Origin: Robiginitalea sp.
GTDB lineage: Bacteria > Bacteroidota > Bacteroidia > Flavobacteriales > Flavobacteriaceae
DNA: 64,000 bases
Assembly (NCBI GenBank): GCA_024642005.1
Contig: JAHECA010000001.1
Span: 186,001 to 250,000, forward strand
Direction of reading: 5' to 3'
How positions within the stretch are numbered: the stretch's first letter is position 1; every line of letters begins with the position of its first letter. Positions 11,141 through 37,892 of the stretch are shown piece by piece. The notes beneath the pieces were generated by a model. That model saw nothing but the letters and a program-made list of their open reading frames with translations. It was not told the DNA's origin and did not search any database. The position numbers and the translations under genes were made by a program.

Positions 11141-11222
11141 TGCAGGCGGAGAGACTCGAACTCACACACCTTGCGGCACCAGATCCTAAGTCTGGCGTGT
11201 CTACCAATTCCACCACGCCTGC
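11141..11222 (-). tRNA. tRNA-Leu (anticodon UAG)
   Basis: On the minus strand the acceptor 5' strand GCAGGCG pairs with CGCCTGC, with A as discriminator. The D-loop region reads TGGTAGAC, the anticodon stem is CCAGA/TCTGG around CTTAGGA, and the T arm contains GTTCGAGTC. The variable arm is long, as expected for a class II tRNA. Length is 82 bases without an encoded CCA. The anticodon TAG in the loop makes it a leucine tRNA reading CUA-type codons. Confidence 0.95.
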
Positions 11223-35109: not shown

Positions 35110-36081
35110 ATGGAAACACGCTACCATCCCCCAAAACCAGACCCCTGGCAGGGTCGCCGCTCCGAAGACGCCTCGTATCTGCACGAGAATATTGCCCTGC
35201 TTAACCTTTCAGAAACCACCGGGGAGCACCCGCCCCACCGGCAGCCGGCCCTTCTCGGTTATGCCTGCGATGCCGGGGTGGCACGCAACCTGGGTCGCCC
35301 GGGGGCTGCTGAAGGCCCGGCCATGCTTCGCAAAGCCCTGGCGAAAATGCCCTGGCCCGAAACGGGCCCGGGACAGCTCTGGGATGCGGGCGATGTAGTC
35401 TGTACCGACGATAAACTGGAAACCACCCAGGCCCTGATGGGCCTGCAGGTCGAACGGCTGCTAGACCGGGGCTATTTCCCGATCGGGCTGGGGGGAGGGC
35501 ACGACATCGCCTATGGCCATTACTCGGGAATCCGGAAGCATTTTAAAAAGGAACAGCTGCTCGGCATTGTCAATTTTGACGCACACTTCGACCTGAGGCG
35601 CCCCGAGCCGGCCCCGCATTCGGGGAGCCCCTTTTACCAGATCGCCCGTGATTGCCGCGACCAGGACATTGATTTCAAGTATGCCTGCCTCGGGCTCAGA
35701 CGCGACGCCAACCCCCTGGAGCTCTGGGAGCGGGCGGCAGCCTGGCACGTGCTGCAGGTAGAGCGACCCGAGCTAAGTGAGCGGAGCTTTGAACAAGCCC
35801 TGGAACAGTTAAAAGCCTTTTTGCAGCCCCTCGATGCGGTATACCTGACCATTGACCTCGACGGCTTTGCCTCGGCCTATGCCCCGGGGGTGAGCGCCCC
35901 TTCCCCAATGGGTTTTTCTCCCATGGAAATCATGCCCTTCCTTGAAGCCGTACTGGAATCAGGGAAACTGGTGGCAGCCGACATAGCCGAACTCAACCCC
36001 GCTTACGACCGGGATGGGCAAACGGCCATGCTGGGCGCAGCCCTGCTCCACAAAATCATCTCGTTCCCCGGCTTATTCTAA
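35110..36081 (+). CDS. hutG: Formimidoylglutamase (arginase/ureohydrolase family)
   Basis: 323 residues. The binuclear manganese site of the ureohydrolase family is seen in GGGHDIAYG, VNFDAHFDLR and TIDLDGFASAYAPG. With its place last in hutHIUG, this indicates hydrolysis of N-formiminoglutamate to glutamate and formamide, completing the pathway. It starts 2 bases after hutU, and its 3' end overlaps hmgA on the opposite strand by 9 bases. Confidence 0.93.
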   Translation: METRYHPPKPDPWQGRRSEDASYLHENIALLNLSETTGEHPPHRQPALLGYACDAGVARNLGRPGAAEGPAMLRKALAKMPWPETGPGQLWDAGDVVCTDDKLETTQALMGLQVERLLDRGYFPIGLGGGHDIAYGHYSGIRKHFKKEQLLGIVNFDAHFDLRRPEPAPHSGSPFYQIARDCRDQDIDFKYACLGLRRDANPLELWERAAAWHVLQVERPELSERSFEQALEQLKAFLQPLDAVYLTIDLDGFASAYAPGVSAPSPMGFSPMEIMPFLEAVLESGKLVAADIAELNPAYDRDGQTAMLGAALLHKIISFPGLF

Positions 36082-37541: not shown

Positions 37542-37569
37542 AAAAAAAAGCCTCCCGCAATCGGAAAGC
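37542..37569 (-). terminator. Rho-independent terminator of the candidate small RNA
   Basis: On the minus strand GCTTTCCG pairs with CGGGAGGC (8 bp with two G-U pairs, loop ATTG), followed by eight T. Confidence 0.75.
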
Positions 37570-37630
37570 CTTTCATGGGATGCGACACAACGTGCCGCCG
37601 ACCCTATTCCCCAAATGGGGAACACAACAC
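37542..37630 (-). ncRNA. Candidate small RNA of about 90 nt with three hairpins
   Basis: On the minus strand, a -7 box (37638-37645) is followed by three stem-loops in a row. Hairpin 1 is a perfect 7-bp stem TTCCCCA/TGGGGAA (37607-37622). Hairpin 2 is GCGGCAC/GTGTCGC with a 3-base loop and one G-U pair (37582-37598), closed by GGG/CCC (37577-37604). Hairpin 3 is an 8-bp terminator followed by eight T. No start codon with a reasonable frame lies inside. The 5' end is estimated from the promoter. It could instead be an attenuated leader for hmgA, 312 bases further on. Confidence 0.6.
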
Positions 37631-37637
37631 AACAGGG

Positions 37638-37645
37638 CAAAGATA
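37638..37645 (-). promoter_or_regulatory. -7 promoter element of the candidate small RNA
   Basis: Reads TATCTTTG on the minus strand, an exact TAnnTTTG match placed directly before the three hairpins. The -33 element is degenerate. The remaining bases up to 37892 show no gene and presumably include the promoter of the next gene. Confidence 0.55.
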
Positions 37646-37892
37646 GGAAAGCTTTTCCATTTATCCGAATCGCGTGCTCGTTTTGGGCTGACCAGACCGA
37701 TCAGAATCCCCTAAACCTCCATAAATAGTGCTTTCATCGATAAACTGCATCAGCGGCGATCGGGTCAAATCCAATTAAAACGGATAAGCGGTGCCAAGGG
37801 GTGCTGTTTATCGAGAACCTGCCGTGGTTCAACGGATGTGCTTAGTCTTAAGCTAACGCGTATCTAACTTTAGTGTACCCAAAAAAGGACTT

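Follow-up and report, generated by a model that had tools for sequence, protein, structure and literature searches.

To our knowledge, few small RNAs of the Bacteroidetes have a comparatively supported target, and bacteria of this group are, as far as we know, mostly without Hfq. Trans-encoded base-pairing small RNAs that open an mRNA leader are of the DsrA/rpoS type, and the small RNA SraG is encoded in the rpsO-pnp region itself. In the portions of the sources that were available, SraG is tied to pnp and to PNPase homeostasis in Enterobacteria (PMC9032294) and appeared to raise PNPase in Y. pseudotuberculosis (PMC3832800), and control of PNPase through the pnp leader of E. coli acts via RNase III (PMC9032294). 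For the Rfp small RNAs of F. psychrophilum, the predicted targets named in the available part of the source are metalloproteases and an adhesin; Rfp18 is described there as conserved beyond the species and strongly structured, with at least three stem-loops and a predicted pairing region in the third, and its deletion lowers two metalloprotease mRNAs (PMC9723704).

We analyzed an element within a 64,000-nucleotide stretch of Robiginitalea sp. DNA (the window, by which we mean that whole stretch) and consider it likely that this element encodes a trans-acting small RNA (sRNA) of ~94 nt, which pairs with the pnp leader at two sites and opens the leader hairpin. As a small RNA tied by prediction to the level of PNPase it resembles SraG, which is the nearest functional precedent in the sources as far as they were available, but unlike SraG its gene lies away from rpsO-pnp, either in a hut/hmgA locus or just downstream of tRNA-Asp, and its predicted pairing involves two short sites. 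Like RNAs of the DsrA/rpoS type it has pairing segments that lie apart, and what it is proposed to open is a leader hairpin, whereas its sequence is unrelated, its phylum is another one, its target would be pnp and no Hfq dependence is known here. The S15-Flavobacteria leader RF03161 belongs to the same rpsO-pnp region as the predicted target; unlike the pnp leader sites, it is a cis element placed before rpsO by its name, and it lay further upstream of pnp in all five of the five loci scanned. A comparison by description with the available account of Rfp18 shows that both RNAs are conserved and structured, with at least three stem-loops, but that the predicted targets named in that account differ; the F. 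psychrophilum Rfp set, as described there, may hold a homologue of the window sRNA, possibly Rfp18, and F. psychrophilum was not represented in the 120 stretches among the matches listed. In the literature searched, a scope that left most subscription journals outside, no paper joined a flavobacterial sRNA with pnp, and the complementarity of sRNA segments to two pnp leader sites is the new result here.

The coordinates of the gene and its parts are collected in Table 1. The box TATCTTTG was assigned on the basis of TAnnTTTG, which we take to be the -7 consensus of the Bacteroidetes. The first-pass annotation, made from the letters alone, had described this box followed by three hairpins, the last with eight T, and both were confirmed, at 37645-37638 and 37624-37542, respectively. 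The sRNA body starts with GUUGUGUUGUG and continues through two stem-loops to the terminator hairpin, of which the hairpin proper spans 37574-37545 and runs into the eight T, to 37542. The G-U pairs that had been noted in the stems are present, in the third stem, and the view that no protein can be read agrees with the list of open reading frames (≥60 aa), which has no minus-strand frame over the element and only mechanical ones on the plus strand. The element has what is expected of an independent small RNA gene, namely its own promoter box, an intrinsic terminator, no protein and a structure under selection.

Table 1. Features of the sRNA locus, in positions of the window.
Feature	Position	Strand	Basis or remark
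sRNA gene		minus	hmgA on one side, predicted secreted protein on the other
AAAAGCTTTCC, promoter element abutting the -7 box on its upstream side	37646..37656	(-)	consensus of 77 distinct own-box upstream regions
TATCTTTG, -7 promoter box, Bacteroidetes type	37638..37645	(-)	sequence; about the same distance in other own-box copies
sRNA body, about 94 nt	37542..37635	(-)	5' end inferred from the -7 box; R1 and R2 match 37543-37635
5' segment GUUGUGUUGUGU	37622..37633	(-)	predicted to pair with the pnp leader of the same genome
Stem-loop 1	37605..37624	(-)	MFE and helix 1 of A3; overlaps the 3' end of the 5' segment
Stem-loop 2	37577..37604	(-)	MFE and helix 2 of A3
CCCAUGAAAGG, second pairing segment	37569..37579	(-)	complement of UUUUUCAUGGG in this genome's pnp leader
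Stem-loop 3 and U-run, intrinsic terminator	37542..37574	(-)	terminator scan, MFE, helix 3 of A3

Copies of the RNA that carry their own -7 box share the consensus AAAAnCTTTnnTATmTTTG across the 77 distinct upstream regions, and this consensus holds no TTG signal at the usual distance. The exact pattern occurs at one place in the window's own genome, which is the element in the window. Use of this promoter as the marker of a regulon was rejected, because only this one exact site and two sites with one mismatch were found in the genome; one of the latter two is, as judged by eye, a tRNA promoter.

The element is a conserved, structured RNA. Its 91-nt strand folds with a minimum free energy (MFE) of -42.9 kcal/mol, compared with -26.2 ± 3.1 kcal/mol for 200 dinucleotide shuffles (z = -5.3), none of which was as good. 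A scan with the terminator consensus was by itself not significant (5 found in 4 kb versus 5.0 expected), and thus the evidence lies in the folding and, above all, in the conservation; a chance terminator, which the scan alone would allow, was ruled out by the fold z-score and the covariation alignment. In this alignment (A3; 117 copies, 113 of them distinct, fitted to the covariance model R2 described below), 93.0% of cells were paired versus 77.6% after shuffling, 15 of the 25 pairs were changed on both sides (414 cells versus 123 in shuffles), and controls with slid partners gave 46-71% pairing. Changes on both sides were found for 6/6 pairs of helix 1, 6/6 of helix 2 and 3/13 of helix 3, with 88.3%, 91.4% and 95.7% of cells paired, respectively, so that compensatory changes are seen in all three stems of the covariance-model alignment. 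In an alignment-free test, the variable middle scored below z = -2 for 117 of the 131 distinct copies (median -3.8), in a set where the middle reached into stem 3 in some rows and three true copies missed by the regular expression were left out. In some genera, one hairpin replaces stem-loops 1 and 2. The stems are thus conserved in relatives, the absence of which the first-pass annotation had named as grounds for abandoning its proposal, and that proposal of a ~90-nt small RNA is both supported and extended by the wide conservation in the family, the covariation and a likely target.

Similarity searches with BLASTN found the sRNA in 9 of 10 genomes of the window's genus, its own included, and in 16 of 99 relatives in all. 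A covariance model built from 15 copies (R1) gave matches at E ≤ 0.01 in 326 of 397 genomes of the window's family, the weak ones among them including false matches; 134 R1 matches were inspected, and the three found to be false (L110, L148, L159) were dropped before loci were counted. A second model (R2), made from 34 further copies of which most were tRNA-linked and none came from the window's genus, recovered the window copy with 52.7 bits (E = 3.7e-7; next best in that genome, E = 0.03); stand-alone and tRNA-linked copies therefore belong to a single family. When R2 was run over 196 genomes of the order, every match better than 2.3e-5 lay within the window's family. The 22 R2 matches inspected outside it, the best included, were rejected as homologues: none had the 5' motif or CCAAUGA, and they resemble ordinary terminators. 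The members among the matches listed include Flavobacterium, Myroides and Paenimyroides species and a few metagenome bins under other names. One genome (G136) had no credible sRNA match, and another (G008), 74% complete, had the leader sites described below and no sRNA match.

The first reading could not place the RNA in a known family, and an Rfam search has now borne this out. Over the whole window only a tRNA at 11141-11222 scored above threshold, the best match of the sRNA reached 22 of the 50 bits required, and 16 diverse sRNA loci gave only tRNAs above threshold. The Rfam families sau-6072, Phe_leader, suhB and ctRNA_p42d were discarded as weak matches, all far below threshold.

A survey of 157 sRNA loci, with downstream flanks examined over about 0.7-3 kb, revealed two principal settings. 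By the pattern used, 78 copies had their own -7 box and 79 did not, and the latter were without hmgA in the flank examined. An intact tRNA-Asp(GTC) stood within 110 nt upstream of 55 copies, and another nine came after a tRNA-Asp 3' end where no intact tRNA-Asp was detected, so that 64 copies in all follow the 3' end of tRNA-Asp; 15 copies fit neither the own-box nor the tRNA-Asp class. The gene hmgA was found downstream, in the flank examined, at 47 of the 157 loci, all 47 with own-box copies and always on the same strand (gap of 44-2048 nt, median 177). It was absent from the flank examined for the other 31 own-box copies, and for 14 of these the next open reading frame was a convergent arginase-family (hutG-like) gene, which leaves no following gene that the RNA could lead.

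These loci bear on the possibility, raised in the first-pass annotation, that the element is an attenuated leader of hmgA. A cis-acting RNA of this kind would have a terminator regulated by the supply of tyrosine or homogentisate. Placement of 47 own-box copies upstream of hmgA, none of them opposite to it, would be in keeping with such a leader, but the gap to hmgA varies up to 2 kb, copies occur without hmgA in the flank examined (14 of them next to the convergent gene), 64 copies follow tRNA-Asp instead, and the minimum-energy and centroid folds show three hairpins only, a leader peptide having been sought by eye only. The constant linkage to hmgA expected of a cis leader was not found. Because the RNA persists at loci where hmgA does not follow, we regard it as not being an hmgA leader and give that explanation next to no credence. 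In the window, the 3' ends of hmgA (minus strand) and of the arginase-family hutG-like gene (plus strand) overlap by 9 bases, at 36073-36081.

The pnp leader was identified as the predicted target of the sRNA through a search with the complement of its seed. The sRNA has two best-conserved segments, GUUGUGUUGU and CCAAUGAAAG, and the 5' leader of pnp holds a complementary site for each, the two being arranged for antiparallel pairing. As judged by Pfam (RNase_PH domains and the PNPase RNA-binding domain), pnp encodes PNPase, a central enzyme of RNA degradation; we refer to the partner of the second segment as site 1 and to the A/C-repeat partner of the 5' seed as site 2. The exact seed complement ACAACACAAC occurs at 47 places in 10 genomes of the genus, nine of which are the sRNA genes themselves, and among 20 of the other 38 places that were inspected the sole recurrent one was 59-82 nt upstream of the pnp start, in seven genomes. 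The same pnp leaders contain UUUUUCAUUGG, the complement of the second conserved segment, and the two sites stand in the order required by antiparallel pairing. In the window's own genome the sRNA is on contig C9 and pnp on contig C48, and sRNA positions 37631-37622 are a perfect 10-nt complement of ACACAACACA in that pnp leader; within this 5' segment, GTTGTGTTGT was invariant across the 15 copies of alignment A1 and varied in a few other copies. A search of the 128 kb of both strands of the window found the site pair nowhere except antisense to the sRNA gene. In the loci scanned, comparison of the pnp leader with Rfam 15 gave nothing above threshold. The rpsO-pnp intergenic region (G000:C48, upstream of 159580, minus strand; L346) holds a conserved leader hairpin whose imperfect stem is rich in U and whose loop is rich in A and C, and in many pnp leaders a AAAAAGCT-like sequence also precedes site 1.

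The same search bears on whether the pnp leader might instead act as a sponge, titrating away an sRNA that mainly acts on other mRNAs. The pairing data would also fit a sponge, and many leaders hold several ACAACA-type repeats, yet none of the 20 exact sites inspected outside sRNA genes was recurrent besides pnp, and across the genomes the seed complement shows no clear enrichment (47 places, 38 of them without sRNA genes, versus 33 for the reversed control). We judge a sponge unlikely; the sRNA may have further targets besides pnp.

Comparison of pnp leaders across genomes supports the predicted pairing well, through the presence and the order of the leader sites. Leaders were taken from 30 chosen genomes, 28 more (16 from the family and 12 from other families of the order) and seven of the genus, none of these being a random sample; G160, which had a match without a leader, and G082, which had no pnp match, were kept outside the counts. 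Site 1 was present in 51 of 53 leaders of the window's family versus none of the 12 leaders from the order's other families. In one of the two exceptions the sRNA and the leader have both diverged yet still match each other; the second shows neither. G044 has a leader without site 1, and its best R2 match is false. At site 2, each sRNA matched its own leader perfectly over 8-13 nt (median 10) versus a mean of 6.5 nt for shuffled leaders (42 genomes), and nine further genomes gave 10-12 nt; the 12 outside leaders matched a generic seed over 4-8 nt only. Since site 2 sits in A/C repeats, more than 5 of 100 shuffled leaders matched as well in 10 of the 42 genomes. Complementarity to an mRNA encoded elsewhere, as expected of a trans-acting sRNA, is thus conserved.

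The leader sites also led to additional copies of the sRNA. Eight genomes with leader sites had either no R1 match (G015, G021, G028, G033, G051, G120) or a false best R1 match (G309, G144), and an sRNA was predicted for all eight from the leader sites; R2 found it in 8 of 8 (E = 2e-8 to 4.5e-4), with the motif. In seven of these eight a tRNA-Asp 3' end stands no more than 70 nt upstream; in the eighth, G021, this holds for a weaker second copy alone.

Covariation between the partners was less decisive. At site 1, where 607 of 663 cells were paired (51 genomes), 36 of 20,000 permutations of partners were as good as the own partners, a number that rose to 1865 of 20,000 without G019 and to 2126 when the 35 distinct pairs without G019 were used; at site 2 the corresponding counts were 155 of 20,000 and, without G019, 669 of 20,000. 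These permutation tests ignore relatedness, and the alignment of G019 was anchored by eye; without this genome the site-1 covariation is not significant and the covariation statistics are modest. A column shuffle of 42 site-1 pairs was likewise weak (62/500 for cells paired, 36/500 for covariation and 12/500 for double-changed pairs), and the leader stem also constrains site 1. Individual matched changes were nevertheless found: the window's genome has CCCAUGA in the sRNA and UCAUGGG in the leader where relatives have CCAAUGA and UCAUUGG, G337 has CUAAUG/CAUUAG, and G179 has AUGGAAA/UUUCCAU. Such changes do not necessarily raise the total number of pairs: G179 has 11 with its own leader versus 12 with the consensus leader, and G000 has 11 versus 10. 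In G019 (anchored by eye) both partners are strongly diverged and still match over 12/13 and 10/10 nt. Within the window's genus, 10 to 12 of 13 pairs form at site 1. Uncompensated site-1 mismatches occur in G004, G005 and G009, and uncompensated mismatches also in G327.

The modest partner covariation without G019, together with the invariance of the repeat-like GUUGUGUUGU in 15 copies, would also be expected if the element were a structural or protein-binding RNA (bound, e.g., by an RRM protein) and its resemblance to the pnp leader did not come from pairing. At both sites, however, the sRNA and the leader are complementary rather than alike, and in antiparallel order, and the leader sites share the family distribution of the sRNA. 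We consider such an RNA very unlikely and the element probably one that controls PNPase, a regulation predicted from the conserved sites.

Folding of the leaders suggests how this control may operate. In the predicted folds, site 1 is paired with a downstream strand in 48 of 51 leaders and an ACAAC is fully unpaired in 50 of 51; with this ACAAC unpaired in the loop, the sRNA seed can meet the loop. Joint folding of the window sRNA with its own leader gave -80.9 kcal/mol versus -42.9 and -23.0 kcal/mol apart, a gain of 15 kcal/mol. Of the 27 intermolecular pairs, the seed accounts for 12 and site 1 for 9; the remaining six, formed by GGGUCG with CGACCC, lie between these two and open the outer part of stem-loop 2. 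We propose that the 5' end of the sRNA, GUUGUGUUGU, would meet the ACAACACAAC repeats shown in the open loop of the leader hairpin, after which (A)CCAAUGAAAG, before the terminator, would pair with UUUUUCAUUGGU, the 5' strand of that hairpin, and displace GACCAUUGUUUAAC of the leader itself; the variable stem-loops 1 and 2 would be looped out wholly or partly. Because the second segment is nearly identical to the leader's downstream strand, it can displace that strand. Pairing presumably takes place in cells and would change PNPase synthesis. The pnp start codon follows site 1 at a distance of 39-133 nt (median 90), in most genomes too far for simple ribosome blocking, and we therefore lean towards relief of a leader block as the effect, with RNase III cleavage of the duplex as the main alternative.

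PNPase may in turn affect the sRNA, closing a homeostatic loop. Rather doubtfully, we extend this to a family-wide circuit in which PNPase would degrade or process the sRNA, the sRNA would switch the pnp leader hairpin and many genera would cut the sRNA from a tRNA-Asp transcript, stable-RNA output thus being read into the amount of a main 3' exonuclease. If such a circuit exists, its pairing would have outlasted the divergence of the family even as the circuit shifted from one type of locus to another. Regulation of PNPase via the pnp leader, as in E. coli, may have evolved independently in these bacteria and with another RNA as partner. Since the predicted target has matching sites through the family, RNA-based regulation in the Bacteroidetes can now be tested directly in laboratory strains.

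Several further observations concern the tRNA-Asp loci. In Flavobacterium (e.g., L166, L164) a strong hairpin with its T-run partly in the stem lies between tRNA-Asp and the sRNA, and read-through or processing must therefore be explained. Clusters of sRNA copies were seen at L143, L091, L104 and L107, with four R2 matches each in L143 and L091 and with the copies repeated together with tRNA-Asp in L104 and L107. At L091, L101, L102 and L105, a second identical or near-identical copy follows only the 3' end of a tRNA-Asp, 2.3-6.8 kb from the intact unit, and such direct repeats resemble traces of integrative elements that use the tRNA-Asp/sRNA locus. Three viral contigs (L426-L428) also carry the sRNA, two of these copies being near a contig end.
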